Source of the DNA: Agrobacterium tumefaciens
GTDB lineage: Bacteria > Pseudomonadota > Alphaproteobacteria > Rhizobiales > Rhizobiaceae
DNA length: 64,000 bases
Reading direction: 5' to 3'
Assembly (NCBI RefSeq): GCF_013337285.1
Contig: NZ_SUPW01000006.1
Location: forward strand, 124,001-188,000
Below, piece after piece: positions 45,101-59,769 of the stretch. Position 1 is the first letter of the stretch. Each line of letters begins with the position of its first letter. The translations under genes were made by a program, and so were the position numbers. The notes under the pieces were generated by a model that ran no database searches, was not told the DNA's origin, and saw only the letters and a program-made list of their open reading frames with translations.

Positions 45101-45141
45101 TTGAAAACACTGAACACGTGTGCAATATGAACACGCGTTCA
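45101..45141 (+). promoter_or_regulatory. Promoter with two LacI-type operator copies ahead of phosphatase operon 1
   Basis: TTGAAA at 45101-45106 and AATATG at 45124-45129 are spaced by 17 bp, a plausible -35/-10 pair. TGAACACGTGTGCA (45111-45124) fills the spacer. TGAACACGCGTTCA (45128-45141) covers the -10 and start region. Both are near-dyads with a central CG, as LacI-family operators have. A third copy lies at 51298, beside the lacI-type gene. The rest of the 330-bp gap (44827-45100) shows nothing clear. Confidence 0.62.
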
Positions 45142-45156
45142 CTCTAGAGGAAATGG

Positions 45157-46005
45157 TTGTTGCGCATGGACTCGATGCCTTATCCGGATACATTGACGGC
45201 TCGCGCCGAACTCTGCCGCAGCGTTATTCTTTCCGCCGGGGAACTGGTGCTGAAAGGTTTTCAGGGCGAAGCGACACGCAGCTTCTCGATGAAGGGGCCA
45301 CAGGACTTTCTGACCGTCACGGATGCTGCCTCCGAAGCGCATATTCGCGGGGCCATCGCGGCTTGTTTTCCCGATGACAGTTTTTTCGGAGAAGAAGGCG
45401 GCGGGGAGATTGGCGAGCGCGTCTGGGTCGTGGACCCCATCGACGGCACTGCGAATTTCGCCCGCGGCATTCCACATTTCTGCATCTCCATCGCTTATGT
45501 CGAAAACGGGCGAACAGAGCTTGGCGCGATCTATAATCCCGCCCTTGACGAGCTTTATTTCGCCCGTCGCGGGGAGGGGGCGACGCGCAACGGCTTGCCG
45601 CTCCGGGTGTCGGAGACGGAGCGTTTCGATGCGGCGTCGATTGAAATGGGCTGGTCGACCCGCGTGGCGAATGACGTCTATCTCGACGTCGTCAAGAACC
45701 TGCTCGATATGGGCACCAATGTCCGCCGCGCCGGCTCAGGGGCCATGGCGCTTGCCTATGTGGCTGATGGCCGCTCCGATGCCTATCTCGAATTGCATAT
45801 GAATTCATGGGATTGTCTTGCGGGGCTGCTACTCGTCAGCGAAGCTGGCGGGGATGTCTGCCCTTTCCTGGAAATCGGTAGTCTTGAAGATGGCGGGCCG
45901 GTGCTGGCGGCAGCCGGCGGTGTTGCCAAAGGTGTCAGTGAGGCATCGAACATACCTTTGGCCGAGCGGCAGCCGTCCGGTGGGCAGCGGGCCGCATCGG
46001 CCTGA
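45157..46005 (+). CDS. Inositol monophosphatase-family phosphatase, copy 1
   Basis: A 282-residue Mg-dependent phosphatase of the IMPase/FBPase/CysQ superfamily. A TTG at 45157 is taken as the start because it lies six bases after AGAGG; ATG at 45166 (MDSMPYPDT) is the alternative. Metal and catalytic motifs: DFLTVTD (about 50), GEEGGG (about 78), VDPIDGTANFARG (about 91-103) and SWDCLAG (about 222). The family dephosphorylates inositol phosphates, sugar phosphates or PAP. It opens unit 1 of the LacI-controlled system, and a homologue lies in unit 2 at 58108-59019. Substrate open. Confidence 0.88.
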   Translation: MLRMDSMPYPDTLTARAELCRSVILSAGELVLKGFQGEATRSFSMKGPQDFLTVTDAASEAHIRGAIAACFPDDSFFGEEGGGEIGERVWVVDPIDGTANFARGIPHFCISIAYVENGRTELGAIYNPALDELYFARRGEGATRNGLPLRVSETERFDAASIEMGWSTRVANDVYLDVVKNLLDMGTNVRRAGSGAMALAYVADGRSDAYLELHMNSWDCLAGLLLVSEAGGDVCPFLEIGSLEDGGPVLAAAGGVAKGVSEASNIPLAERQPSGGQRAASA

Positions 46006-46011
46006 TTTTAG

Positions 46012-46045
46012 ACGAAGCTCAGCCCGTGATGAAGGGCTGCTTCGT
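46012..46045 (+). other. Intercistronic hairpin between phosphatase genes of unit 1
   Basis: ACGAAGC and AGCCC on the left pair with GGGCT and GCTTCGT on the right to form a 12-bp stem with a 2-base bulge and an 8-base loop. It occupies most of the 57-bp gap before the ribosome site of the next gene. It lacks a T-run and may tune relative expression. Confidence 0.5.
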
Positions 46046-46062
46046 GCATGTGGAGGAATGAC

Positions 46063-46671
46063 ATGGATGGACCCGTTTATGCCCGGCCTGCGATCAGCCT
46101 GATTTCGGAAGGGCTCGGCCCGCACAATGCTGCGCTTTATATCGGCGGCAGCGACGGTGCGAGTGATCTCGGGCTCCTGCGCCGGCACGGCATCACCACC
46201 GTCGTCAATTGCGCCGTCAATCTCGACATCAATCTCGTACAGGCGGTGGCGGAAGAGGGTGATAAGCGCGCCGTGGGCTATGGCGATATCCGTTATTACA
46301 AGCTTGGCCTGATCGATGGCGAAGGCAGTCCCGACACGATGATGCTGGGAGCCTATTACATTCTCGACGGCGCGCTTCGGCAGACAATGCCAAAACGCGA
46401 AACCTATCCTTTCCCCGATGGTGGCAATGTGCTGGTCAACTGCCGCAGCGGCCGCAGCCGCTCCGTCTCGCTGGTAGCGCTTTTCCTCCACAAGCAGCAG
46501 CCGCATCTTTACCCCACACTTGACGACGCGGTTTCCGTGATCCGCACCAGGCGGGAATTGCGGCCCGATGAATGGTTCGAGACGCCGAAACCCATGCTTT
46601 ATGCCGCCGCCCGCCGTGCTTCCGGCTGGATCGACATGGTTGAAGGCAGAAAGACCGCTCAATCATGCTGA
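46063..46671 (+). CDS. Dual-specificity-type Cys-X5-Arg phosphatase-like protein, copy 1
   Basis: A 202-residue protein. ATG at 46063 (MDGPVYARPAISLIS) follows TGGAGGAATGAC. The active-site loop reads VLVNCRSGRSRSV with Cys127 and the Cys-X5-Arg spacing of protein-tyrosine and dual-specificity phosphatases. An Asn replaces the usual His before Cys. The GITTVVNCAVNLD segment near 43-55 matches the beta strand and turn of DSP folds. A general acid Asp may lie in LIDGEGSPD (about 83-91). It overlaps the next gene by 7 bp. In this setting a small phosphorylated metabolite is a likelier substrate than protein. A homologue is at 59069-59695. Confidence 0.8.
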   Translation: MDGPVYARPAISLISEGLGPHNAALYIGGSDGASDLGLLRRHGITTVVNCAVNLDINLVQAVAEEGDKRAVGYGDIRYYKLGLIDGEGSPDTMMLGAYYILDGALRQTMPKRETYPFPDGGNVLVNCRSGRSRSVSLVALFLHKQQPHLYPTLDDAVSVIRTRRELRPDEWFETPKPMLYAAARRASGWIDMVEGRKTAQSC

Positions 46672-48350
46672 CACGTGCGCTTCCTTCCGTCGCCGTCATT
46701 GCCGACGCGCATTTTCATGACACGGCCGCTGATTTCGGATTTCCGGGCATCGAGATCGATGGTGAGCGCATCACCATGCGCAGCTGGTCGGATACACGCG
46801 AATCCACCCGGGTTTTCAACGAGAGCGCCGATGCGCTGCATGCCGCACTCGAAGAGGTGAGGCAACGCGGCATTCGCCATGTGGTGCTGCTTGGCGATTA
46901 TACCGATGACGGCCAGCGGGCGACCACCGAAACGCTGAAGGGCATTCTCGAGCGTCATCGTGATGCCCACGGCACCGCTTTTTATGCATTGCCCGGAAAC
47001 CACGATATTTTCGGGCCAAGCGGCCGGCACCATACCAAGGAATTCCTGACGGAAAATGGCCGATGCCTTTCCGTTTCGAGCGATGCACGGCGGGCCGGGG
47101 AGCGGGTTGTTATCAGCGACCGGATGTATTGCGAGGGCTATCCAGTGGGCCTCGGCCCCATGGCGGCCTTCGGATATTTCCGCCAGCCGGACTATATTCA
47201 TTGGGAAACGCCGTTCGGTCTCTCCGACTTGGCGGAAGACCGCCTGTACGAGGTGCGCTCGCCCGATGGACACAATGTCTACCAGCTGATGGATGCCTCC
47301 TATCTCGTCGAGCCGGAGCCGGGTCTCTGGCTACTGATGATTGACGCCAATATTTTCGAACCGCTCGATGGTACTTTCAAGACAGGCGAAGAGGCGGCCT
47401 TCACCGACAGCACCTCCGGCGGCTGGAACGCGCTTTTGCGCTGCAAACCCTTCATCATCGACTGGATTGCCGATGTGCGTCATAGGGCAGAGGCGCTGGG
47501 CAAAACGTTGCTTGGCTTTTCCCACTATCCGGCGCTCGATCCTTTTGATGGCGCAAGCGGTGCCGAGGGCGCGCTGTTCGGCGAAACCAATGTCGTGCGC
47601 CGCACGCCGCGCAAAGCGGTGGAGGATGCGCTGCGTCACGCCGGGCTTGCCATCCATTTCAGCGGGCACCTGCATGTGGAAGGTGTGACAAGGCGCGGGG
47701 AAGGGGAGAGTTCGCTCACCAATATCGCCGTGCCGTCGCTGGTGGCCTTTCCGCCTGCCTTCAAGGTTGTCCACCCGTCGCGGCAGGAAATCACTGTGGA
47801 GACGGTGGAGATGGACGCTCTGCCGATCAACAGCCTTATTTGCCGAGGCTATGCGCAGGAAACGGTGCTGGCTGGCGAGGACGAGGACCGGGCGTTTGCG
47901 GCGGGCAACTATGGCGAGTTTCTGCTTGGTCACAAACGGGCGCTGATCAGGCACCGTTATTTCATCAAGGAATGGCCGGCCGAGGTTGTGGCGGCCATTG
48001 CGGATAAAACCGTGCAGGATGTCATTGGCCTGATTGGAAAAAAGGGCGCATCCACATCGGACGGCCTCGTGCTGGCTTCTGAATTACCGATGTTCGAGCT
48101 GATTGCCGATTGGTATTGCCTGCGTCAGGGCGCGGGTCTTGCCCTGCCGCATATCCAGCCGGAGCGGCTTTCCCTCTATCGGGTGCTTGCAGAACGCTTC
48201 GGCCGCGAGGCGGATCGCCACGACGGTTCCGTTCAAAGCTTTATCGAAATCTTCTTCGGTGCGCTTGGCCTGTTTCTGGAGCGTGCTGAAGGCAGTTCGC
48301 GTGATCTCACGCTTCAGTTCGCTCCACAATATGAGCGCGTAGCGGTTTGA
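46665..48350 (+). CDS. Calcineurin-like metallophosphoesterase
   Basis: A 561-residue enzyme. The dimetal motifs are in order: VIADAHFHD (Asp-x-His, about 11-19), LGDYTDDG (about 70), LPGNHDIFG (about 107), GFSHYPAL (about 284) and HFSGHLHVEG (about 327). The C-terminal 200 residues (about 360-561) are an extra domain I do not recognise. No signal peptide. It should hydrolyse a phosphodiester or monoester in the cytoplasm, before or alongside the two other phosphatases of the operon. Its start overlaps the end of the Cys-X5-Arg phosphatase gene. Confidence 0.88.
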   Translation: MLTRALPSVAVIADAHFHDTAADFGFPGIEIDGERITMRSWSDTRESTRVFNESADALHAALEEVRQRGIRHVVLLGDYTDDGQRATTETLKGILERHRDAHGTAFYALPGNHDIFGPSGRHHTKEFLTENGRCLSVSSDARRAGERVVISDRMYCEGYPVGLGPMAAFGYFRQPDYIHWETPFGLSDLAEDRLYEVRSPDGHNVYQLMDASYLVEPEPGLWLLMIDANIFEPLDGTFKTGEEAAFTDSTSGGWNALLRCKPFIIDWIADVRHRAEALGKTLLGFSHYPALDPFDGASGAEGALFGETNVVRRTPRKAVEDALRHAGLAIHFSGHLHVEGVTRRGEGESSLTNIAVPSLVAFPPAFKVVHPSRQEITVETVEMDALPINSLICRGYAQETVLAGEDEDRAFAAGNYGEFLLGHKRALIRHRYFIKEWPAEVVAAIADKTVQDVIGLIGKKGASTSDGLVLASELPMFELIADWYCLRQGAGLALPHIQPERLSLYRVLAERFGREADRHDGSVQSFIEIFFGALGLFLERAEGSSRDLTLQFAPQYERVAV

Positions 48351-48429
48351 TCTGAAGGTTTTGCAACGGGCTGCTGCATCGCAGCCCCGAGTGCAGACCG
48401 GCGGCGGGGACGACAGGCGAGGTGATCCG

Positions 48430-50073
48430 ATGGAATCGGTCGTTGTCAGCATCAATCTGTTCGGCGCGGTGGCGCTGCTACTTTTCGGCCTTGCGCAGAT
48501 CAAGGACGGCATGTCGCGCGCGTTTGGCGCCAGGCTTCGCACCGGTCTTGCCGCCGGCACGCGGGGCGGTTTTCGCTCCTTCGTTGCCGGTCTCGTGGCG
48601 ACGATCGCCTTGCAGAGTTCGACTGCGACCGCGCTGATGGTCGCTTCTTTCGTTGAAAAAGACCTTATCGCGCCGGCCATGGCGCAGATCGTGCTGCTGG
48701 GAGCCAATGTTGGCACCGCGATGACTGCGTGGATTGTCGCGCTCGGGCTTGGCTGGCTGTCGCCAATGCTCATCCTCGCGGGCGTCATCCTGCTACGGGG
48801 AAAATCGGCGCAGCGGCAGGGAGCGGGTGCGGCCCTTGCCGGTGTCGGCCTGATGCTGCTTTCCCTGCATCTTCTTTCCGCCGCGACCGATCCTATCAGA
48901 CAATCACCGGCGCTTGGCCTCTTCATTTCATTGCTTGGCGATGCCTGGCCGGTGGCGCTGATTTTCTCCGCCGTCCTGGCGGTGCTGGCATCTTCCAGCC
49001 TTGCGATTGTCGTTCTCATCCTGTCGCTCGCGGCAAGCGGCGGCATCGAAACGAGCCTCGTCATCGTGCTGGTGCTCGGCGCCAATCTCGGCGGTGCGGT
49101 GCCACCGGTGCTGGCAACGCTGAAAGCGCCGATTGCGGCGCGCCGGGTGACTGTCGGCAACCTCATCGTCAGGGCCATCGGCTGTCTTCTGGCCCTGCCT
49201 CTTGCCGGATATGGCGCGGTGCTTCTGGATATGTCGCCCTTTTCGCACGCCAATCTCGCGGTTGATGCGCATCTTTTCTTCAATCTGGCTGTTGCCGCCA
49301 TCGCGTGGCCGCTCTCGCCGCTGCTTTTGCGGGTAACGAAGGCAATGCTGCCGGAAAAAGAGGGAAGCGAAAGCAGCCGCAGCTATCTCGACAGTCACGA
49401 TCTCGATCAGCCGGTTGCAGCACTTGCCGGTGCAAGCCGCGAGGTGCTGCTGGTCGGCGACCTGATCGAGCGCATGCTGCGGCAGGCAAGCGAGGCGATG
49501 CGCGATAGCGACGTCGCGAAACTCAACGACATCAGCAGGCTGGAAGGCCGGGTCGACCGCATACAGCATGACATCAAGGTCTATGTCTCGAAGGTCGGAC
49601 AGGATGGGCTTTGCCGGAAAGACCAGCGCCGCGCGATGGATATCGTCGAATATGCCATCAATCTCGAACATATCGGCGATATTATCGAGAAGGGTATCCG
49701 TCCGGAAATCGCCAAGAAGATCGATCTTGGCCTGCAGTTTTCCGCTGACGGCAAGAGTGAGCTGGAGCGTCTTTTCGCCGTCACACTCGACAATATCCGC
49801 ATGGCCCAATCGGTTTTCGCGACCCGCAATGCTGATCTTGCCCGCCGGCTGGTGGAAGTGAAGGAAGATGTGCGGCGTCTCGAAAAGCAGTCTTCGGAGC
49901 GCCATTTGCAGCGCCTGCGTGATGGCCGCGCCGACAGCATCCAGACCAGTTCCGTGCATCTGGACATGCTGCGCGACCTCAAACGCATCAACGCCCATAT
50001 CGCCGCCGTCGCTCATCCGATCCTCGATGAAAGCGGCCTCCTGATTGAAAGCCGCATCAAGCAGGTGGGTTAG
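48430..50073 (+). CDS. Na/Pi-cotransporter-family protein with PhoU-like domain
   Basis: A 547-residue inner-membrane protein. ATG at 48430 (MESVVVSINLFGAVALLLFGL) follows GAGGTGAT. Two inverted repeats carry the family signatures ALQSSTATALM (about 61-71) and LASSSLAIVVLIL (about 180-195). The hydrophobic core ends near residue 310. A helical C-terminal PhoU-like domain (about 330-540) follows, as in bacterial YjbB-type proteins, which export phosphate. In an operon of three intracellular phosphatases, export of released phosphate is a sensible role. It ends tail-to-tail with the lacI-type gene, their stop codons overlapping. Confidence 0.87.
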   Translation: MESVVVSINLFGAVALLLFGLAQIKDGMSRAFGARLRTGLAAGTRGGFRSFVAGLVATIALQSSTATALMVASFVEKDLIAPAMAQIVLLGANVGTAMTAWIVALGLGWLSPMLILAGVILLRGKSAQRQGAGAALAGVGLMLLSLHLLSAATDPIRQSPALGLFISLLGDAWPVALIFSAVLAVLASSSLAIVVLILSLAASGGIETSLVIVLVLGANLGGAVPPVLATLKAPIAARRVTVGNLIVRAIGCLLALPLAGYGAVLLDMSPFSHANLAVDAHLFFNLAVAAIAWPLSPLLLRVTKAMLPEKEGSESSRSYLDSHDLDQPVAALAGASREVLLVGDLIERMLRQASEAMRDSDVAKLNDISRLEGRVDRIQHDIKVYVSKVGQDGLCRKDQRRAMDIVEYAINLEHIGDIIEKGIRPEIAKKIDLGLQFSADGKSELERLFAVTLDNIRMAQSVFATRNADLARRLVEVKEDVRRLEKQSSERHLQRLRDGRADSIQTSSVHLDMLRDLKRINAHIAAVAHPILDESGLLIESRIKQVG

Positions 50074-51056
50074 CGCGCGGTGATGCGCTCGACCATGGAA
50101 ACGGGCACGACCTGAAGCCGGGTTTCCGGCAGGTCGCTGTCGAGAGCGGTCAGGACTTTTTCGGTCAGCGCGTCGAAGGATTGGGCAACGGTGGTCAGTT
50201 GATAGCTTTTCCAGCCAGCCTGTGGAATATCGTCGAAACCGACGATCGAGAGATCTTCCGGCACCCGGCGGCCCATTTCCAGCCGCGCAGCGTCCATGAA
50301 ACCGAGCGCCAGCAGGTCGGTTACACAGAAAGCGCCATCGATCGCCTTGTCGGCCAGCAATTCGCAACCGGCCTGATAACCGCTGTCATAACTTGTCGGT
50401 CCGCCGGACCAGGGAACGACCTCGATGCCTTCGATGGTCATGCGCTGGGTGAAGGCGCCGGCGCGGCGCAATTGTGCCGGGGTCTGGCTGCCGCTGGAAA
50501 TGACCGCGACCTTCCGGCATTTCGCCGCCACAAGCCGCATGGCGGCAAGGTCGGCACCGTGGGAATCGTCGCTCAGCACCATATTCGTATCGGTGCGGTC
50601 GAGACGCTGATTGATGAGGATGAGGCGCACGCCATTGGCGATGCATTCATCGACGATCGAGGCCGGCGGTTCGCCGGAGAGAACGACGATCGCCTGGGCG
50701 CGGAACTCGAAAAGAAGCTCGATCAGCGGCGCGATATCCTTGCGCGCATCGGCCGCATTCAGCAGCAGACATTGCAGACCGCGACGCAGAAGGCCGATGC
50801 TGAGCAGGTCGAGCTGCTTTGAAATGAAGGGAGAGCTGAGATTGGCGCCGACGACCCCGATGAGGTTGGAGCGGTCATTGTTGAGGCCTTGCGCCAGACG
50901 GTTGACGCGGTAGCCAAGTTCCTGCGCGGCTTTCAGCACCTTACGCCGTACCACCTTCGAAACGCTGCCGCCGGGGGTGAAGGTGCGCGAGACGGCGGAG
51001 CGCGAAACCCCGGCCTTTTTCGCCACCTCTTCGGCTGTCACGAACCCTCTCGCCAT
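50070..51056 (-). CDS. LacI-family regulator of the organophosphate system
   Basis: A 328-residue regulator starting MARGFVTAEEVAKKAGVSRSAVSRTFTPGG. The helix-turn-helix is at about 6-27, the hinge helix at RRKVLKAAQELGYRVNRLAQGL, and a periplasmic-binding-protein-like sensor domain runs from about 62 to the end (LIGVVGANLSSPF, then VGFDDIPQAGW near 270). It lies between the two phosphatase units and is divergent from unit 2. TGAWCACGYGTKCA motifs sit upstream of both units, so it probably controls both, with a phosphorylated or dephosphorylated sugar-like effector. The controlled set is inferred from motif and position. Confidence 0.92.
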   Translation of the reverse strand: MARGFVTAEEVAKKAGVSRSAVSRTFTPGGSVSKVVRRKVLKAAQELGYRVNRLAQGLNNDRSNLIGVVGANLSSPFISKQLDLLSIGLLRRGLQCLLLNAADARKDIAPLIELLFEFRAQAIVVLSGEPPASIVDECIANGVRLILINQRLDRTDTNMVLSDDSHGADLAAMRLVAAKCRKVAVISSGSQTPAQLRRAGAFTQRMTIEGIEVVPWSGGPTSYDSGYQAGCELLADKAIDGAFCVTDLLALGFMDAARLEMGRRVPEDLSIVGFDDIPQAGWKSYQLTTVAQSFDALTEKVLTALDSDLPETRLQVVPVSMVERITAR

Positions 51057-51297
51057 TCAATTCCCCCGGTTGCGAAATCCTATGCCTGATACCACAGGCG
51101 ATGTGGCGTCGGCTATTCCAATCGAAATTTTTCAGCTGCCCGCCGCTGCGCGAGGGCAGGGAGATGACGTACACTCCTGGAAAACGTCCCATTCGTTCCA
51201 TTGCTGTCCCGCCGGGAAAAACATTCCTCCGTTCATCATGCTAAAAAAATTACAGTTTTGTGACAAAAAGACGTTTTAAAACAAATAAATAACTTAG

Positions 51298-51311
51298 TGA
51301 TCACGTGTGCA
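51298..51311 (+). promoter_or_regulatory. Third copy of the LacI-type operator motif, ahead of unit 2
   Basis: TGATCACGTGTGCA differs at one base from the copy at 45111-45124. It lies in the 519-bp divergent region between the lacI-type gene and the transporter operon, nine bases upstream of a TTGACA (51320-51325). If TTGACA is the -35 box the -10 (near ATCATG, 51344) is poor, so the exact promoter is uncertain. Confidence 0.55.
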
Positions 51312-51368
51312 TTTTTTCGTTGACAAACCGCCTTTAAAGACGGATCATGCATTCCAAGGTCGAGTGAT

Positions 51369-51390
51369 ATATGGAATTTTTATTCCATAT
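51369..51390 (+). promoter_or_regulatory. Perfect 22-bp palindrome upstream of the transporter operon
   Basis: Arms ATATGGAAT and ATTCCATAT surround TTTT, giving a perfect 9-4-9 inverted repeat about 186 bp upstream of the permease start. AT-rich arms of this type are usual for a regulator site rather than a terminator. Which protein binds is unknown. A GGGAGGAG with no suitable start codon follows at 51413-51420. The remainder of 51391-51575 shows no gene. Confidence 0.5.
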
Positions 51391-51575
51391 TCGCTTTGCC
51401 GACGATGTTTTCGGGAGGAGCTGGGATCATCGTTGTTGGCGGGTTTTGGGCACCCGCTTCTGAAGCATTGATGCATTGCTGAAGGTCACGCACGCGCCGC
51501 CTGTTTTGCAGGCTGTGCGAAGGCAGTTTTTTGCCGGCGTGTCAGGGCAGTGGTGTGGCCATACGGGGAGAGATA

Positions 51576-53429
51576 ATGGCTCTTTTAAGCGAATCAACGA
51601 AGGCGGAGGCATTGGGGCGTCCCCCGGCGACCGCGCCTTCGGCATGGCAGGCCTGGCGATATCGCCTCAAGGTCGCGCTCCGGGAGCCGACGACGCTGAT
51701 CGGCGTTCTGACGGCCCTGCTTTTCACCTATCTGATCGTCATTCCGATCATTTCGATCGTTTTCGATGCGGTGCGCGTGCAATTCGGCCACGAACGGCGT
51801 CTTGGCAAAGATGTTGGCGACCTCACGCTTTATTATCTCGACAGAGCGTTTTTCTCGCCTGTCGCGACAGACCTTTTCTGGCGACCGCTCTTCAACACCC
51901 TGACGGTAGCTTTCGGGGCGATTGCGCTTTCGCTGGTCATCGGCACCGTGCTTGCCTGGCTTATCAGCCGCACGGATATGTTCGGCCGTCGTTGGTTCGC
52001 CACCGCGCTGATCGTGCCTTATATGCTGCCGGCCTGGACCTTCGCGCTGGCATGGACGACCCTGTTCAAAAACCGCACCGTTGGCGGCCAGCCCGGCTGG
52101 TTCGAGGCAATAGGCCTGACACCGCCGGACTGGGTGGCCTATGGGCGCTTCCCGATCACCATCATCCTTGCGCTGCATTACACGCCTTTCGTCATCCTGC
52201 TGTTCGGCTCGGCGCTTCGCCGCTTCGACTCGCAGCTTGAGGATTCCGCCCGCATTCTCGGCGCACACCGTTATCAGGTGGCCTTGCAGATCATCATGCC
52301 GCTGATGCGCCCGGCGCTGCTGTCTTCCATGGTGCTGATCTTTGCGAAGTGCCTTGGCGAGTTCGGTGTGCCTTATGTTCTGGGGCTTCCCGTGAAATTC
52401 GAAGTCCTGTCGACTTCGCTGTTCCGCAGCATCGCCTCGCGCCAGACCGGCGTTGCCGGTGTCGTTGCGGCTGCGATCATGCTCATCGGCATCGTCACGC
52501 TGATGATTGACGCCCGCCTCGTTCGCGAAGCCCGCCGTTTCGTGACGATCGGGTCGAAGGGTTCGATGAACCGTCTAAGCCGTCTCGGCAAGATGCGGCT
52601 TCCGGCAACCGGCTTTGCCGCTGCCGTCTTTATACTCAGCGTCGGCCTGCCGCTTCTGACCCTGGCGCTCTCGACCGTCATGAAGATGCCGGCCAGATTC
52701 TCGCTCGATAACTTCACACTCGATTACTGGATCGGCACCAACCTCAACACGGTGGCCTTGCAGACCGGTGTTCTCTTGAGTCCCGATCTCTGGGCGGCCG
52801 CCAAAAACACGATGATGATCGTTGGCCTTGCCTCGCTGACATCAGGCGTTCTCGGTCTCTTGGTCGGCTATGTCGTCATCCGCACGCCGGTGCGCGCGCT
52901 GTCGGTCTATCTGCGACAGGTAACGTTCCTGCCTTATCTCGTGCCGGGCATCGCCTTTGCCGCCGCCTATCTGTCGCTGTTTGCCGTTCCGCGCGGGCCG
53001 ATGCCGGCGCTCTATGGCACGGTGACGATCCTTATCCTCGCACTGATTGCCGACCAGATGCCCTATGCCTCACGCGCCGGCATTTCGGCCATGACGCAGC
53101 TTGGAAAGGACCCGGAAGAGGCGGCGCAGATCGCCGGGGCCGGCTGGTTCCGCCGCATGATCTCCATCGTCATCCCGATCCAGAAGGGATCGCTGGTGAC
53201 GGGGGTTCTCCTGCCCTTCATCTCGGGCATCAAGGGCTTGAGCCTTTTCGTCATCCTCGCCGTGCCGAGCACGGACGTGCTGACCACCTACTCGCTTCGG
53301 CTGGTCGATTACCATTACACGCAGGCCGCAAACGCCGTGGTGCTGATCATCGCCGGCATCGCCTATTTCGGCACGCTGTTGGCCCAGAAACTGACCCGCA
53401 CAAATCTTGCAGAAGGACTTGGAAGCTGA
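51576..53429 (+). CDS. Fused double-permease of an AfuB/FbpB-type ABC importer
   Basis: A 617-residue inner-membrane protein of two joined permease halves. ATG at 51576 (MALLSESTKAEALGR) follows GGGGAGAGATA. Each half has an EAA-type loop: DSQLEDSARILGAHRYQVALQIIMPLMRP in the first (about residue 220) and LGKDPEEAAQIAGAGWFRRMISIVIPIQKG in the second (about 515). About twelve helices in total. This architecture is shared by ferric-iron importers (FbpB) and by AfuB, whose system carries sugar phosphates. The stop overlaps the ATPase start (TGATG). The neighbouring phosphatase genes argue for an organophosphate rather than iron. Confidence 0.92.
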   Translation: MALLSESTKAEALGRPPATAPSAWQAWRYRLKVALREPTTLIGVLTALLFTYLIVIPIISIVFDAVRVQFGHERRLGKDVGDLTLYYLDRAFFSPVATDLFWRPLFNTLTVAFGAIALSLVIGTVLAWLISRTDMFGRRWFATALIVPYMLPAWTFALAWTTLFKNRTVGGQPGWFEAIGLTPPDWVAYGRFPITIILALHYTPFVILLFGSALRRFDSQLEDSARILGAHRYQVALQIIMPLMRPALLSSMVLIFAKCLGEFGVPYVLGLPVKFEVLSTSLFRSIASRQTGVAGVVAAAIMLIGIVTLMIDARLVREARRFVTIGSKGSMNRLSRLGKMRLPATGFAAAVFILSVGLPLLTLALSTVMKMPARFSLDNFTLDYWIGTNLNTVALQTGVLLSPDLWAAAKNTMMIVGLASLTSGVLGLLVGYVVIRTPVRALSVYLRQVTFLPYLVPGIAFAAAYLSLFAVPRGPMPALYGTVTILILALIADQMPYASRAGISAMTQLGKDPEEAAQIAGAGWFRRMISIVIPIQKGSLVTGVLLPFISGIKGLSLFVILAVPSTDVLTTYSLRLVDYHYTQAANAVVLIIAGIAYFGTLLAQKLTRTNLAEGLGS

Positions 53430-54562
53430 TGCCTACCATCAACTTGCGCGGTGCGCAGAAAAACTACGGTGTGAATTCCGCAAATGCGGTTTCCGATCTC
53501 GATCTCGAAATCCGCGACGGCGAATTCATGTGCCTGCTCGGCCCTTCCGGCTGCGGCAAAACCACGACGCTGCGGATGATCGCCGGCCTCGAAAACCTCT
53601 CCGGCGGAGAAATCCGTGTCGGCGACCGGGTGATAGACTCTGTCAATGACGGCATCTTCGTGCCGCCGGAAAAGCGTGAAATGGGCCTCGTCTTCCAGAG
53701 CTACGCGCTCTGGCCGCATCTGACCATCGAGCGTAATACAGATTTCGGCCTGCGCTTGCGCAAGCTGCCGAAGGCCGAGCGTGAAGCCCGTGTGGAACGC
53801 GTCATGCAGGCGCTCGATATTGCCAAATATCGCGACCGGTATCCGTCGCAGCTTTCCGGTGGGCAGCAACAGCGTGTGGCGCTGGCCCGCATGCTGGCCG
53901 TCAATCCCGGCGTTCTGCTTCTGGATGAGCCGCTGTCCAATCTGGATGCCCGGCTGCGGCTGGAAATGCGCGCCGAGCTGAAGCGGCTGCACAAGGAATT
54001 CAAGACCACCATCGTCTTCGTGACGCACGACCAGTGGGAAGCCATGACGCTTGCCACCACTATCGCCGTCATGAACGAGGGCACGTTGCAGCAGATGGGC
54101 ACGCCGAACGATATCTATGATCGTCCGGCCAACCGCTTCGTCGCCGAATTTGTCGGCAGCCCGCCGATCAATATCCTGACCTTTGGCCAGCCCGGCGTCT
54201 CCGATGTTGCCGATAAGGGCGAAGCCTATTTTGCAGCGCGTTATCCGCAACTGCGCGGCATCGCGTCGGTCGGCATGCGGCCGGAGGCGATGGGTTACGT
54301 GATGAAGCCGGAAGATGTGCCGCAGGGCAGTTTCTCCGGTGAAATGACGGTGACGGGCGTGCTGCCGACCGGCGGCAGCTGGATTCTTGAGCTGAGAAGC
54401 GAAAACCACACGCTGTTTCTCACCACCCATTCCCTGCCGCGTATCGACAGCGGCGACCGCGTGTTTTTCCACGTGTCGCCGGAGGCCCTGCATGCTTTTG
54501 ACGCAAGGGGGCAGCGGGTCACCGAGGCGGACGCCGTTCTACGCAACAGCACCTACAACTGA
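53429..54562 (+). CDS. AfuC/PotA-type ABC ATPase
   Basis: A 377-residue ATPase. Walker A GPSGCGKTT at about 39-47, Q-loop LVFQSYALWPHL near 88, signature LSGGQQQRVALARML near 142, Walker B VLLLDEPLSNLD and the switch His in VTHDQWEAM. A TOBE-type C-terminal domain runs from about 245. The start ATG overlaps the stop of the permease gene by one base. The inter-gene gap to the first binding protein is 34 bp. It energises the fused permease. Confidence 0.93.
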   Translation: MPTINLRGAQKNYGVNSANAVSDLDLEIRDGEFMCLLGPSGCGKTTTLRMIAGLENLSGGEIRVGDRVIDSVNDGIFVPPEKREMGLVFQSYALWPHLTIERNTDFGLRLRKLPKAEREARVERVMQALDIAKYRDRYPSQLSGGQQQRVALARMLAVNPGVLLLDEPLSNLDARLRLEMRAELKRLHKEFKTTIVFVTHDQWEAMTLATTIAVMNEGTLQQMGTPNDIYDRPANRFVAEFVGSPPINILTFGQPGVSDVADKGEAYFAARYPQLRGIASVGMRPEAMGYVMKPEDVPQGSFSGEMTVTGVLPTGGSWILELRSENHTLFLTTHSLPRIDSGDRVFFHVSPEALHAFDARGQRVTEADAVLRNSTYN

Positions 54563-54596
54563 AAACGCCGGCAAAGACGGCTGAAGGAGAAGCAGT

Positions 54597-55721
54597 ATGA
54601 AGCGGACAATGACGGGTTTGAGCCGGCTGTTATGCGCAACGGCTATCGCTGCGACGTTTGGCGGCGCGGCGAAGGCGGAAGAGCCTTTCGACCTCAATGC
54701 CCTGATCGAGGCGGCCAAAAAGGAAAAGCCGATCACCGTCTATGACAGCACCGGCAAGATCGTCGAAATGGCGAAGAACTTCGCGGCGAAATATGGCGTG
54801 GGCGCCGAGGGCGCGAAGGTCAAGGCCACAGCCCAGCTGGAAATGATCATCCGCGAGGCGCGCGCCAACAATATCCAGGGCGACGTTTCGATCATCAGCG
54901 ATGCGCCGGCAGCGATGGCGCAGCTTATTCCGATGGGTTTTGTCGAAAGCTGGTTGCCGCCGGATCTGGCCGGCAATATTCCGCCGGAATATCAGGACCC
55001 GCTCACCGTCGTCACCAGCGCCAATGTCTGGGCCTATAATAGCGAGCTTTTCGAAAAATGCCCCGTTTCCAACATCTGGGAACTGACCGACCCGAAGTGG
55101 AAGGGCAAGGTGGCGATGCAGGATCCGCTCGGCAAAGCCTCCTATGTCGATTGGTTCAATCAGATGGCCAAACATGGCGATGGCGAGGTAAAGGCGGCCT
55201 ATAAGGCGCTCTACGGCAAAGACCTCGAAACAGCAGAGACGACAGCGACCGCCGCCTGGGTGAAGGCGCTTGCCGCCAACGCTCCGCTTCTGACCGATGC
55301 CGATGCGGCGGCCGCCGAAGCCGTTGGTACGCCCGGCCAGAAGGATGCGTTCATGGGCCTCATCAGCTCGGCGAAGTTCCGCGACAATGCCGACAAGGGC
55401 ATGAAGCTTGGTCTTTGCAAGGAGCTGAAGCCTTGGGCCGGCTGGCTTTATCCGGGCGTCGGCCTGATCACCAAGGGTACGGACAGCCCGAACGCAGCGA
55501 AGCTCTTCATTCACTACATCATGACCGCTGAAGGCATCGCGCCGCAGGCGATCGACGGCAAGATGTCGACCAACAAGGAGGTGAGCCTGCCCGCCGACGA
55601 GCCTTCGGGTATCGGCGCGGTTCTCGACCACATTCTGCCTTACAGCATGGCCACCAGCCTTGACGACTGGGATGCGCGCGAAACGTGGCAGGACTTCTGG
55701 CGCGTGAACTACAAAAAATAA
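54597..55721 (+). CDS. Periplasmic binding protein 1 of three, AfuA/FbpA-like
   Basis: A 374-residue extracellular solute-binding protein. ATG at 54597 follows GAAGGAGAAGCAGT; the signal peptide ends near GGAAKAEEP. The mature part begins PFDLNALIEAAKKEKPITVYDSTGKIVEMAKNF. Two cysteines (EKCPVSN near 155 and LGLCKEL near 268) are conserved in all three copies and may form a disulfide. The tyrosine set that binds iron in FbpA is not evident. The start of the fold (TVYDSTGKI) matches organic-ligand members. First of three tandem paralogues serving one permease. Confidence 0.9.
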   Translation: MKRTMTGLSRLLCATAIAATFGGAAKAEEPFDLNALIEAAKKEKPITVYDSTGKIVEMAKNFAAKYGVGAEGAKVKATAQLEMIIREARANNIQGDVSIISDAPAAMAQLIPMGFVESWLPPDLAGNIPPEYQDPLTVVTSANVWAYNSELFEKCPVSNIWELTDPKWKGKVAMQDPLGKASYVDWFNQMAKHGDGEVKAAYKALYGKDLETAETTATAAWVKALAANAPLLTDADAAAAEAVGTPGQKDAFMGLISSAKFRDNADKGMKLGLCKELKPWAGWLYPGVGLITKGTDSPNAAKLFIHYIMTAEGIAPQAIDGKMSTNKEVSLPADEPSGIGAVLDHILPYSMATSLDDWDARETWQDFWRVNYKK

Positions 55722-55737
55722 CGGGGGGACCGACGCA

Positions 55738-56883
55738 GTGACGACAATGAACCACAACCGATATGGTGGGCAGCGCGGGGGCCGAATGGCCTCCGCACTC
55801 TCCCTGATCTTCTCGCTGGCGCTTGGCACCGCCGCACATGCGCAGGACGCCTTTAATCTCGATGCGCTGATCGACGCCGCAAAGAAGGAAAAGCCTATCA
55901 CCGTTTACGCGGTGACCGGCAAGATCGTCGACACCGCGCAGGCCTTCACAGCCAAATACGGCGTGCAGGCCAGCGGCAAGAAGGTGAACGAGGCAACGCA
56001 GGTCGAGCTGATGATCCGCGAGCATCGGGCCGGCAACGTCGTCGGCGATGTCAGCGTTGCAACCGATGTCGCCTCCGCCATGGGGGAGCTTTTGCCGGAA
56101 GGCATCGCCACCAGCTGGTCACCGCCGGATATGGAAGGCGATATTCCGCAAAAGCTGCGCGATCCGCTCGTGATCGTCTCCGATCCGCATGTGTTTACCT
56201 ATAATACCGAGAAATACGACACATGCCCGGTCACCAATATCTGGCAGCTGACGGAGCCGCGGTGGAAGGGCAAGCTGGCCATGCTCGATCTCTTCGACAA
56301 GCCGCTTTACGCCGACTGGTTCAACCAGATCGAAACCCATCACGATGCGGATGTCGCCAAGGCCTACGAAGATCTCTACGGCAAGAAGCTTGAAACGGGC
56401 GAAAAAAGCGCGACGGCAGCCTGGGTAAAGGCCTTTGCCGAAAACGCGCCCCTGCTTTCTGATTCAAGCACGGTTGCGGATGCGGCCGGTGCGCCGGGGC
56501 AGGCCGATCCGTTTTTCGTCATCACCTCTGTGGCCAAATACCGTGACAATGAGACCAAGGGGCTGAAGCTCGGGCTTTGCACCGGCGTCAAACCCTTTTC
56601 CGGCTTCCTTTATCCCGGCTTCGGCCTGATTGCCGGGCAGACGAAAAGTCCGAATGCGGCAAAGCTCTTCCTGCACTACCTGATGACGGAAGAGGGCATC
56701 GCGCCACAGACCGCCGACGGCAAAATCTCCGGCAATACGAAAATCGCCTTGCCTGCGGATGAGCCTTCGAAGGTGGCAGCTCACCTCGACGAGCTGATGG
56801 CTTTCGATGCGACAACGGCTGCCGATGACCTCGACAAGCGCGAAGGCTGGCAGGATTTCTGGCGTGTGAACTACAAAAAATAA
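55738..56883 (+). CDS. Periplasmic binding protein 2 of three, divergent copy
   Basis: A 381-residue paralogue. A GTG at 55738 is taken as the start because GGGGGGA lies eight bases upstream; ATG at 55747 or the Met of MASALSLIFSLALGTAAHAQ at 55786 are possible. The signal peptide ends near AHAQD. The mature part begins AFNLDALIDAAKKEKPITVYAVTGKIVDTAQAF. It shares the two cysteines (DTCPVTN, LGLCTGV) and the ending DFWRVNYKK with copy 1. The ligand-facing segments (YAVTGKIVDTA, SVATDVASAM) differ from copies 1 and 3, so it may bind a different ligand. Confidence 0.9.
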   Translation: MTTMNHNRYGGQRGGRMASALSLIFSLALGTAAHAQDAFNLDALIDAAKKEKPITVYAVTGKIVDTAQAFTAKYGVQASGKKVNEATQVELMIREHRAGNVVGDVSVATDVASAMGELLPEGIATSWSPPDMEGDIPQKLRDPLVIVSDPHVFTYNTEKYDTCPVTNIWQLTEPRWKGKLAMLDLFDKPLYADWFNQIETHHDADVAKAYEDLYGKKLETGEKSATAAWVKAFAENAPLLSDSSTVADAAGAPGQADPFFVITSVAKYRDNETKGLKLGLCTGVKPFSGFLYPGFGLIAGQTKSPNAAKLFLHYLMTEEGIAPQTADGKISGNTKIALPADEPSKVAAHLDELMAFDATTAADDLDKREGWQDFWRVNYKK

Positions 56884-56932
56884 CGGCAAGGCGGGCGCGA
56901 GCCTGCCTTACTTTTCCTTGGGAGGGGAGACG

Positions 56933-58048
56933 ATGAAAAGAACAAATTTGACAACGGCGTCAGCCATTGCTGCGGCAATGATCGGATTGTCTGCCATGGT
57001 TGCTGCGGCCGAAGAAGCCTTCGATCTGGATACGATCCTGGCAGCGGCGAAGCAGGAAAAACCGATCAATATCTATGACAGCACCGGCAAGATCGTCGAA
57101 ATGGCCGATAAGTTCAGCGCCAAATATGGGCTGAAGGCGACAGGGGTGAAGGTCTCGGCCAACAGCCAGCTGGAGATGATCATCCGTGAAAGCCAGTCCG
57201 GCAATGTGCAGGGCGACGTGGTGCTGATCACCGACGCGCCATCGGCGCTCGCGCAGCTTCTGCCGGCGGGTTTCGTCGAGAATTACCTGCCGGGCGACAT
57301 GGCGTCTAAAATCCCGGCGCAGTTTCAGGACCCGCTGGCAATTTCCACCAATGCCAATGTCTGGGCTTACAACACCGAAGCCCATGACAAATGCCCGGTG
57401 GGCAACATCTGGGAACTGACCGAGCCGAAATGGAAAGGCAAGGTCGCCATGGTCGATCCCTTGAGCAAGAGCACCTATACGGATTGGTTCAACCAGCTTG
57501 AAGCGCACGGCAACGAAAAGGTGGCGGCGGCCTACAAGGCCCATTTCGGCAAAGAGATAGAGGAAAAAGGCGCGTCTGCCGCATGGATCAAGGCAATGGC
57601 TGCAAACGGCCCGCTTGCCACCGAAGGTGACGACCCGGTGGCGGAAGCTGTCGGTGCCCCCGGCCAGAAACAGCCATTTTTCGGCCTGCTAAGTTCCGCC
57701 AAGTTCCGCGACAATGCCGACAAGGGTTACAAGCTCGGCCTCTGCACGGGCCTCGATCCATGGGTCGGCTGGACCTACATCAAGCTCGGGCTGATCGCGT
57801 CCAAGACCAAGAGCCCGAACATGGCGAAGCTCTTTGTTCATTACATCCTGACGGAAGAGGGCATCGCGCCGCAGATGAAGGACGGCAAGCTACCGACCAA
57901 CATCGACATCAAAATGCCGGCTGACGAGCCCTCGGGGCTGATGAAGGTTGCCGACAGACTGATGGGATACGATTCCGCCACCGGCCTCGATGATTTCGAC
58001 CGCCGCGAGGAATGGCAGGACGTCTGGCGCGTCAACTACCGGAAATAA
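56933..58048 (+). CDS. Periplasmic binding protein 3 of three
   Basis: A 371-residue paralogue. ATG at 56933 (MKRTNLTTASAIAAAMIGLSAMVAAAEEA) follows GGGAGGGGAGACG. The mature part begins AFDLDTILAAAKQEKPINIYDSTGKIVEMADKF, closer to copy 1 than to copy 2. Conserved cysteines lie in DKCPVGN and LGLCTGL, and the C-terminus ends DVWRVNYRK. A short GC-rich 7-bp hairpin follows at about 58068-58086. All three copies have 16-50 bp gaps, so they are cotranscribed. Confidence 0.9.
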   Translation: MKRTNLTTASAIAAAMIGLSAMVAAAEEAFDLDTILAAAKQEKPINIYDSTGKIVEMADKFSAKYGLKATGVKVSANSQLEMIIRESQSGNVQGDVVLITDAPSALAQLLPAGFVENYLPGDMASKIPAQFQDPLAISTNANVWAYNTEAHDKCPVGNIWELTEPKWKGKVAMVDPLSKSTYTDWFNQLEAHGNEKVAAAYKAHFGKEIEEKGASAAWIKAMAANGPLATEGDDPVAEAVGAPGQKQPFFGLLSSAKFRDNADKGYKLGLCTGLDPWVGWTYIKLGLIASKTKSPNMAKLFVHYILTEEGIAPQMKDGKLPTNIDIKMPADEPSGLMKVADRLMGYDSATGLDDFDRREEWQDVWRVNYRK

Positions 58049-58107
58049 TCCCGACTGGCGCGGCTCCTGCCGCGTCGCCTCCTTCTTTGCGAACGAACAG
58101 ACTGGAT

Positions 58108-59019
58108 ATGCCGATGCAGACCTCACCTTCGACCGAACGGAACCTTGCAAATGAGGAGGCGTTTTCCCGCTCGGTGCGGCTGATGAAAATCGCCGAGACG
58201 GCGGCGCGGGCCGTGCGTGATCCGCTGCTTTCGGCATTCCGCTCTGAAATGGCGGTGGACTATAAAGTCGATCTCCACGACATCGTCACCATTCATGACA
58301 AGCGGGCTGAAGCTGCCATTCGTGCCGTCATTCTCGCAAGCGAACCCAATTCCGCGATCATGGGCGAAGAAGGCGGCCAGATCGGCAGCGGCGAGGTGCA
58401 ATGGTATGTCGATCCGATCGACGGTACGGCAAATTTCGCCCGTGGCCTTGCCTTCTGGTGCGTATCGATTGCAGCTGTCATCGACGGCGAGGCGGTTGCC
58501 GGCGTGGTCTATGATCCCGTGGCGGACCAGATGTTTTCCGCCAATCTTGAAGCTTCCTATCTGGACGGAGACAAGCTGCGCTCCCGCAGTGTTGCAGACG
58601 AGACCCGGGCGACCTTGATCACCGGTTATCCCGTCTCGCGTGATTTCCGGCTGGATGGGCGGGAAGCGGCGCTCGCCAATTTCGGCGCTCTTGTCGAGAC
58701 CTTCTCGACATTGCGCCGGCCTGGCAGCGCCGCGCTCAGCATCGCCCATGTTGCGGCGGGCTGGACGGATGCGGCCGCCGGTTTCGGTGTTAATGCCTGG
58801 GATGTGGCCGCAGCCATCCTCATTCTCAAAAATGCCGGCGGAACCTATGAGCCGCTGACCCTTGGAAAGGTGGCGGAAGGTTCTGCCGATTTCCTCTGCC
58901 CTGGTTATATCGCCACGGGTGAGGGGGCGAATTACCCGACATTAGAGCGGGTGGCGCGGTCCATATCCGAAAGCCGTATCGCAGCTATAGGACAAAGCCA
59001 GACGGCTGCGAAAGCCTGA
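58108..59019 (+). CDS. Inositol monophosphatase-family phosphatase, copy 2
   Basis: A 303-residue homologue of the phosphatase at 45157-46005. ATG at 58108 (MPMQTSPSTERNLANEEAF) is used, with another Met two codons on; the ribosome site is weak. Motifs: HDIVTIHD (about 68), GEEGGQ (about 92), VDPIDGTANFARG (about 104-116) and NAWDVAAAILIL (about 230). It lies between the binding proteins and the second Cys-X5-Arg phosphatase, mirroring the order in unit 1. It should act on the imported compound or a breakdown product in the cytoplasm. Confidence 0.88.
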   Translation: MPMQTSPSTERNLANEEAFSRSVRLMKIAETAARAVRDPLLSAFRSEMAVDYKVDLHDIVTIHDKRAEAAIRAVILASEPNSAIMGEEGGQIGSGEVQWYVDPIDGTANFARGLAFWCVSIAAVIDGEAVAGVVYDPVADQMFSANLEASYLDGDKLRSRSVADETRATLITGYPVSRDFRLDGREAALANFGALVETFSTLRRPGSAALSIAHVAAGWTDAAAGFGVNAWDVAAAILILKNAGGTYEPLTLGKVAEGSADFLCPGYIATGEGANYPTLERVARSISESRIAAIGQSQTAAKA

Positions 59020-59068
59020 ACAGATAAAAATATGACGGTGTCCACGTTGGCGCCGATGGAGACATGAC

Positions 59069-59695
59069 ATGCCACAACCGGAACAGGTCCTATCCCACGA
59101 GCAGGAAAGCGGCGAATTGCCGAAGCTCAGCCGCATCTATGAGCAGCACCCACTTTATGGCGTCGATCTGTTCATCTCGGGTAAGGAGGGTGCCAGCGAC
59201 CTCAACCTTCTGCGTCAGAACGGTATCACCACTGTCGTCAATTGCGCCGTCAATCTGGACTTCAACTTCGTGGAACAGCCACAGGTCGTTTCCGATCATG
59301 AAGGCAGCATCTATGGGCCGGGCGAAATCCGCTATTACAAGATCGGCCTGATCGATGGTGCCGGAAATCCCGATACCCAGATGGTGGCGGCCCATTATAT
59401 TCTGCGGGCGGCGCTGGAACAGGTATTGCCCGACAAGCCTTCCTATCCCCGGCGGGAGCGCGGCAGCGTACTCATCAATTGCCGGGGAGGGCGTTCGCGT
59501 TCCGTCGCCGTCGTTGCGCTCTTTCTGCACCTGACGCTGCCGGTGGAATTCCCGACGTTGGATGATGCCATCGACTTCGTTCGCGTGAAGCGCGAACTGC
59601 CGGAAAACGAATGGTTCAAAGCGCCGAAACCCGTGCTTGCGGACGCCGCCCGCCGGGCCGCCGGCTGGATCGCGATGATCGACGCCGCGCATTGA
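59069..59695 (+). CDS. Dual-specificity-type Cys-X5-Arg phosphatase-like protein, copy 2
   Basis: A 208-residue homologue of the protein at 46063-46671, starting MPQPEQVLSHEQESGELPKLSR after GATGGAGACATGAC. The active-site loop is VLINCRGGRSRSV with Cys138 and Cys-X5-Arg spacing, again with Asn before Cys. Shared blocks are GASDLNLLRQNGITTVVNCAVNLD and EIRYYKIGLIDGAGNPDTQM. Last gene of unit 2; a strong terminator follows 38 bp on. Confidence 0.8.
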   Translation: MPQPEQVLSHEQESGELPKLSRIYEQHPLYGVDLFISGKEGASDLNLLRQNGITTVVNCAVNLDFNFVEQPQVVSDHEGSIYGPGEIRYYKIGLIDGAGNPDTQMVAAHYILRAALEQVLPDKPSYPRRERGSVLINCRGGRSRSVAVVALFLHLTLPVEFPTLDDAIDFVRVKRELPENEWFKAPKPVLADAARRAAGWIAMIDAAH

Positions 59696-59732
59696 GGAGA
59701 GATTACCCCGGTGTCATTTGTTTTCGTGCGGT

Positions 59733-59769
59733 AATGGCGACGTCCTCGGCACAAAAGGACGTCGCCATT
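59733..59769 (+). terminator. Rho-independent terminator ending unit 2
   Basis: A perfect 14-bp stem (AATGGCGACGTCCT / AGGACGTCGCCATT) with a 9-base loop, followed by TTATAT. It separates the transporter operon from the convergent TerC-type gene. Confidence 0.88.

Follow-up and report, generated by a model that had tools for sequence, protein, structure and literature searches.

What is imported by a transporter that shares its neighborhood with two sets of phosphatase genes and one LacI-type regulator? This is the question raised by a gene cluster of Agrobacterium tumefaciens, located at positions 45,101 to 59,769 of the window, by which we mean the whole analyzed stretch of 64,000 nucleotides. 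The cluster consists of two plus-strand units on either side of a minus-strand LacI gene. We propose that it encodes a LacI-controlled ATP-binding cassette (ABC) importer of inositol phosphates, with cytoplasmic dephosphorylation and export of the surplus phosphate, and we assign this reading a probability of about 0.6. A preliminary description had suggested organophosphate uptake and left the substrate open; overall, it is partly supported here. The genes that it had named in the two units were all confirmed at their places, and their Pfam families fit:

45157..46005, + strand: IMP1, phosphatase of the inositol monophosphatase (IMPase) family (PF00459 Inositol_P, E 1.5e-59); its start is probably ATG 45166
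46048..46671, + strand: DSP1, Cys-X5-Arg phosphatase of dual-specificity type (DSPc just under cut-off; CR[SG]GRSR motif)
46665..48350, + strand: MPE, calcineurin-like metallophosphoesterase with a C-terminal extension (PF00149, E 1.9e-8; PDB 2xmo, E 4.2e-8)
48361..50073, + strand: NaPi, Na/Pi transporter with a PhoU domain (PF02690, PF01895; TIGR01013 over cut-off)
50070..51056, - strand: LacI-family regulator (PF00356, PF13377)
51531..53429, + strand: PERM, fused ABC permease (BPD_transp_1 twice)
53429..54562, + strand: ATP, ABC ATPase (PF00005 ABC_tran, E 1.3e-33)
54597..55721, + strand: SBP1, periplasmic binding protein (PF13531 SBP_bac_11)
55738..56883, + strand: SBP2, periplasmic binding protein (PF13531 SBP_bac_11)
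56918..58048, + strand: SBP3, periplasmic binding protein (PF13531 SBP_bac_11)
58012..59019, + strand: IMP2, second IMPase-family phosphatase (PF00459, E 9.4e-48); its start is probably ATG 58108
59069..59695, + strand: DSP2, second Cys-X5-Arg phosphatase (51% identity to DSP1; CR[SG]GRSR motif)

The window therefore holds a full cassette of fused permease, ATPase, SBP_bac_11 binding protein, IMPase, DSP and LacI. The reading frames of DSP1 and MPE, and those of PERM and ATP, touch or overlap in an operon-like manner. IMP1 and IMP2 belong to the IMPase family by a PF00459 match over cut-off and by their metal-binding motifs, and IMP1 presents GEEGG, DPIDGT and SWDCLAG. DSP1 and DSP2 scored 33.1 and 32.2 bits against the DSPc (PF00782) cut-off of 33.5 bits; their active-site motif and fold fit a divergent DSPc branch that may work like dual-specificity phosphatases. 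The NaPi product is likely a phosphate exporter.

The following scheme is our inference, from the substrate and the direction of transport to the order in which phosphate is removed, its export, and the repression and its inducer. The LacI protein would occupy operators ahead of both units while the substrate is missing. SBP1 to SBP3 would capture phosphorylated inositol in the periplasm, the three proteins together widening the range of isomers. PERM and ATP would import it as mono- or oligophosphates (breakdown products of phytate), possibly also as diesters of the glycerophosphoinositol type. In the cytoplasm, IMP1, IMP2, DSP1 and DSP2 would release phosphate, with MPE acting on diesters or higher forms. 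NaPi would export the surplus phosphate, and inositol would remain as a carbon source.

Conservation in relatives supports a single module made up of the two units and the LacI gene. Scanning the species genomes with MPE yielded 115 confirmed places; our locus counts refer to the best 80 of them. In 33 of the 80 loci, the genes are arranged as in the window, and the permease shares at least 85% identity. Five others (L104, L123, L133, L137, L139) carry LacI-IMP1-PERM'-SBP'-ATP'-DSP1-MPE-NaPi in one run; here LacI, IMP1, DSP1 and MPE are 47-76% identical to those of the window and PERM, SBP and ATP only 29-42%. Another five, here called reduced loci (L065, L067, L068, L071, L098), keep all or only part of IMP1-DSP1-MPE-LacI, one from Martelella (L126) joins IMP1-MPE-LacI to an AfuA-type transporter, and one (L078) is interrupted at a contig end. 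The remaining 35 hold MPE without the other cluster genes. Since the genes are kept together across genera, share operators, and retain phosphatases and regulator despite a swapped transporter, we regard them as one module.

NaPi and the importer are jointly absent from all five reduced loci, which lie within or near one genus and may represent few events. In L065 (A. tumefaciens B6), TerC, 91% identical to the TerC that follows DSP2 in the window, stands directly on the LacI side; this locus thus appears to have lost both the importer and NaPi, which lie on opposite sides of LacI. The other four reduced pieces gave no TerC match, so their surroundings differ. An ABC importer would need a separate exit for phosphate, which would explain both the presence of NaPi and its absence where the importer is missing. 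However, NaPi is missing from its usual place in 4 of the 33 window-type loci (L092, L093, L096, L097), which argues against a strict need for it.

Within the genus (39 genomes), MPE at 70% identity or more was found in 21 genomes, DSP in 16 and SBP1 above 80% in 13. The DSP search at E 1e-15 matched 4 of 385 genomes of the class and 29 of 297 of the family, own genome included, and in all 33 fetched pieces (two of them from the window) DSP adjoins importer, IMPase or MPE genes. Among 59 fetched loci of the importer family, an IMPase lies within 9 kb in 43 and a DSP in 50; counting IMPase, DSP, MPE or a PGAM-type phosphatase together, the association within 9 kb holds in 54. Loci were mostly fetched through MPE, DSP, SBP or LacI proteins, and the PGAM, MBL and PERM queries were drawn from loci found through DSP or SBP; association counts are therefore not independent samples. 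The earlier proposal that an organophosphate is imported intact and dephosphorylated inside is well supported as a general idea; transport, stepwise dephosphorylation and phosphate export are inferred.

Shared operators also tie the two units together, in agreement with the preliminary description, which had placed both under one LacI-type regulator on the strength of motif copies upstream of each:

45111..45124, no strand: operator 1 of unit 1, TGAACACGTGTGCA, exact match, position kept in relatives
45128..45141, no strand: operator 2 of unit 1, TGAACACGCGTTCA, exact match, 17 bp from operator 1
51298..51311, no strand: operator of unit 2, TGATCACGTGTGCA, exact match, kept in relatives
51320..51348, + strand: promoter-like site TTGACA-17-GATCAT (10/12 matches), directly downstream of the unit 2 operator; the number of promoter-like sites in the region is not above that in shuffles

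The motif TGAWCACGYGTKCA occurs without mismatch only at 45111, 45128 and 51298; with up to two mismatches it gave 8 matches against a shuffle mean of 3.45, a number reached in 2 of 100 shuffles. The wider TGWWCACGYGTKCA has exactly three mismatch-free places in the 5.0 Mb genome, all at the cluster, and with up to one mismatch 6 forward and 5 reverse places genome-wide, versus 0 and 1 for the pattern read backwards. For relatives, a site was counted at up to three mismatches to TGAACACGTGTTCA with the central CG retained, a level found in 4.8 and 5.6% of random pieces of the same loci. In all 33 window-type loci, IMP1 and LacI each have such a site upstream, and the five loci with another transporter present two ahead of IMP1. 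Reduced loci retain sites ahead of IMP1 in four of five cases (L068 shows no IMP1), and none of the five has a site upstream of LacI. Within the genus, TGMWCRCGYGTKCA lies at the cluster in 17 of 39 genomes, and 10 others contain one or two stray places.

A pattern common to more distant cassettes, TGnACnnnnGTnCA, was composed after the Klebsiella and Vibrio sequences and a first listing had been inspected. Across 12 annotated loci (224 kb, three pairs among them being close relatives), it occurred at 13 places, compared to 2.2 in a Markov control. Each of the 12 loci has one of these places no more than 260 bp ahead of its first cassette gene, 12 in all, with 0.03 expected. Both unit 1 sites fit this pattern ahead of the first cluster gene; for TGATCACGTGTGCA at unit 2, the pattern has to be widened to allow T at position 4.

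The link to inositol phosphates comes from relatives of the cassette, which DSP1 reached in Devosia, Shinella and Thioclava and in the Gammaproteobacteria Erwinia, Klebsiella and Vibrio. Ahead of PERM-ATP-SBP-IMPase-DSP-LacI in the two Klebsiella plasmid cassettes examined stand genes for a KdgM porin and a histidine phosphatase. Among solved structures, this phosphatase matches the 3-phytase 2wnh best (E 8.5e-82), which PMC11219571 identifies as PhyK. In Vibrio, the cassette lies opposite genes for a porin and a multiple inositol-polyphosphate phosphatase, MINPP (6rxd, E 5.1e-70; 7zgf), and a short stretch carrying TGCACCCATGTGCA separates the importer from the divergently oriented MINPP gene. 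In Klebsiella and Erwinia, IMPase and DSP form one fused protein of 479 and 528 residues.

The PhyK operon itself, found in K. pneumoniae and K. aerogenes records labelled as plasmids (L269, L270), reads LacI, IMPase, GlpT/UhpT-like transporter and phytase. The L269 phytase is PhyK by sequence (2wnh, E 2.2e-263). The transporter belongs to the major facilitator superfamily (MFS) and is annotated in pieces in L270; its closest match is the PgtP/UhpC/GlpT group, with scores under every cut-off. The LacI of this operon shares 39% identity and the recognition helix, GVSRSAVSRTFT, with the window LacI, and TGCACACGTGTGCA begins 29 and 27 bp ahead of the annotated IMPase gene in the two records. The window thus shares a LacI with the GVSRSAVSRTFT helix and a TGMACACGTGTKCA-like operator with this operon. 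Both also place an IMPase beside an organophosphate-type transporter; the PhyK operon differs in using an MFS instead of an ABC transporter, in having its own phytase, and in lacking DSP, MPE and Na/Pi genes. GlpT is an antiporter, and the Klebsiella MFS protein, if alike, could itself couple import to phosphate export. After thinning rows at 80% identity, every related LacI row whose N-terminus could be read (23, including those of the window and the PhyK operon) contained GVSRSAVSR(T/A)FT, and none of the three outgroup rows with that stretch readable did.

The available parts of PMC4642748, PMC11219571 and PMC12838507 do not describe the LacI-IMPase-MFS-phytase arrangement as a unit. A survey of LacI regulons (PMC4052901) lists IolR-type LacI regulators for inositol, and the words phosphatase and phytase are absent from its main text as far as available. 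It is because of the phytase neighbors and the PhyK-operon regulator that we favor inositol phosphates. At slightly better than even odds, we further suggest a family of dedicated bacterial ABC importers of inositol phosphates in Alpha- and Gammaproteobacteria, in which an IMPase and a DUSP-type phosphatase would complete phytate breakdown in the cytoplasm under related LacI regulators with an operator common to the PhyK operon.

How does the cluster compare to described importers? AfuABC for sugar phosphates (PMC4546632) and P5PA for pyridoxal phosphate (PMC8427247) combine an Fbp-type binding protein, a permease and an ATPase, as the cluster does, and import the phosphate ester intact. The cluster differs from both in its three binding proteins, its cytoplasmic phosphatases and phosphate transporter, and in not keeping the AfuA ligand residues. 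The kinship with AfuABC noted in the preliminary description holds as a distant relation (E 3.8e-5 over part of the chain); in the alignment, His205-Asp206 and Glu229, the AfuA ligand residues according to PMC4546632, are absent from the window binding proteins. AfuA-type proteins of other cassettes retain the His-Asp and Glu residues. The window ATPase resembles UgpC only below the cut-off. UgpBAEC/UgpQ, as an ABC system importing glycerol phosphate and glycerophosphodiesters, is similar to the proposed role of the cluster; it is not known to include an IMPase, DSP or LacI regulator. In the agrocinopine acc system of Agrobacterium, a sugar phosphodiester is reportedly imported intact through the binding protein AccA and then cleaved by the phosphodiesterase AccF, and AccG is presumably IMPase-like. 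That system is Ti-plasmid borne and under another regulator. Its transporter and phosphodiesterase families differ from those of the cluster, and its operon has a GDPD-type phosphodiesterase; GDPD (PF03009) was absent among the window proteins scanned.

Another phosphorylated carbohydrate, such as a hexose or pentose phosphate imported in an AfuABC-like way and processed by the same phosphatases, seems to us unlikely, although it is the alternative we take most seriously. In Martelella (L126), IMPase-MPE-LacI stands beside a true AfuA-type binding protein (8x1a, E 8.3e-89; 4r72, E 4.4e-87) that retains His-Asp and CEGTGYE. AfuA-type transporters with an IMPase also occur in L080 and in Shinella, Pantoea and S. 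meliloti pSymA loci, and the RpiR-regulated relatives L218-L220 and L273 end in a PGAM-type phosphatase. However, the window binding proteins are without the AfuA sugar-phosphate residues, and two different kinds of phytase together with the PhyK-operon regulator indicate inositol phosphates. Uptake of a phosphodiester such as glycerophosphoinositol, with the metallophosphoesterase acting first, appears improbable. MPE does belong to the conserved rhizobial core, and related LacI genes stand in ABC-GDPD-IMPase operons (L296, L297, L300), which would fit glycerophosphoinositol and also counts in favor of our main proposal. Two of them are the stray TGMWCRCGYGTKCA places L289/L296 and L294/L297, adjoining another LacI (50% identical to that of the Vibrio cassette) with SBP-PERM-PERM-ATP-GDPD-IMPase; eight further stray places fetched showed no related genes alongside. 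Yet no MPE match was found in the Klebsiella, Erwinia, Vibrio, Thioclava and Devosia pieces, and the MPE family occurs without the cassette in 35 of the 80 loci. That the cluster is a ferric iron or metal-citrate importer with unrelated phosphatase neighbors is very improbable. Relatives are automatically annotated as 'iron ABC transporter permease', and the SBP1 model (pLDDT 90) is of the MctA/FbpA/AfuA fold class and a strong FbpA-class match. Against iron speak the common LacI operators and the phosphatases, which accompany the importer in 54 of 59 loci and in two genera are joined into one protein. SBP1 to SBP3 have no adjacent Tyr-Tyr pair such as Tyr195-Tyr196 of the FbpA iron site, which may also speak against iron despite the fold match.

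Several points weigh against inositol phosphates as the substrate. The SBP1 model fits sugar-phosphate binders no better than it fits metal-citrate and ferric binders. Histidine-type phytase (PF00328) had no match in the window genome (beta-propeller phytase, PF02333, was not searched). It was found in 5 of 39 genus genomes, in none of the five together with an operator-bearing cluster, and within 9 kb of the importer in 3 of 59 loci, two of which are closely related plasmids. Rhizobial loci gave no phytase with histidine-phosphatase and MINPP queries, and none is annotated within 9 kb of the Erwinia cassette. In agrobacteria, the substrate would therefore come from other organisms, or the ligand would be a different phosphate ester. 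Importers without a phosphatase make up 5 of the 59 (L215, L217, L222, L224, L271), and the strict operator is absent at the related importers L215, L271 and L273. Six further LacI loci (L298-L303) were picked by eye from two listings: four (L298, L300, L302, L303) pair an ABC importer with a phosphatase, with the strict operator ahead of the importer in L298 and L303 and absent at L300 and L302, and two (L299, L301) have a related LacI and no phosphatase. The L298 and L302 transporters are AfuA-type, 68 and 81% identical to that of Martelella, so that related LacI genes accompany an AfuA-type transporter and an IMPase in L126, L298 and L302. The role of the regulator may thus extend to phosphate esters in general. 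Other phosphate esters are also accepted by IMPases, histidine acid phosphatases and DUSPs. Finally, our model leaves unexplained a set of pdxA, Fe-alcohol dehydrogenase and DUF1537 kinase (four-carbon sugar acid type) that adjoins the cluster in five pieces, upstream in Sinorhizobium/Ensifer (L082, L083, L153, L154) and downstream in L104; of 110 pieces searched for pdxA, the remaining 105 gave no match.

Apart from the cluster, a paralogous metallophosphoesterase (about 42-53% identical) lies in another conserved neighborhood (L109-L142, around 10-11.7 kb). By eye, a glycosyltransferase-like protein is nearby in 27 of 35 loci, and other neighbors are deacetylase-like, methyltransferase-like and cyclic-nucleotide-binding-like.

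The importer family also presents other layouts. L218, L219, L220 and L273 read RpiR regulator, SBP, fused permease, ATPase and PGAM-type histidine phosphatase, a layout that, within this transporter family, would be a second one for organophosphate import. DSP takes part in a second arrangement, ATP-SBP-PERM-MBL-DSP(-LacI) (L265, L303, L228, L247-L257), where an ABC importer is combined with an MBL-fold hydrolase and DSP in Pannonibacter, Alloyangia and several Rhizobiaceae, with LacI in several pieces. Genome G173 carries a paralogous LacI-DSP-IMPase-SBP-ATP-PERM cassette (L216, 7572-14239) and a third transporter without phosphatases (L215, 5452-9565), ahead of which is a protein that is PhnD-like by eye. 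A transporter remnant at L217 (7401-9721), with a shortened permease and an ATPase matched in two pieces, lies at a place that recurs on plasmids of walnut A. tumefaciens strains. At L222 (1526-4888, - strand), an open reading frame of 1120 residues, Cas9-like by eye, lies about 1 kb from a related importer.

Phytate is the main phosphorus store of plants and inositol phosphates are its breakdown products; bacterial phytases are mostly secreted or periplasmic. Among the matches listed, we found no paper on a bacterial ABC importer of inositol phosphates, most subscription journals being outside the search. The cluster is conserved in plant-associated bacteria, and in Sinorhizobium meliloti 1021 it lies on pSymB near 167 kb, which makes it accessible to experiments in a standard laboratory strain. 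If our proposal is true, it would define a concrete regulated pathway in root-associated bacteria, correct the 'iron ABC transporter' annotation, assign a function to an unnamed family of DUSP-like phosphatases, and provide a testable operator and inducer for phytase operons. Rhizobia and agrobacteria would then be able to feed on inositol phosphates freed by the phytases of other organisms.

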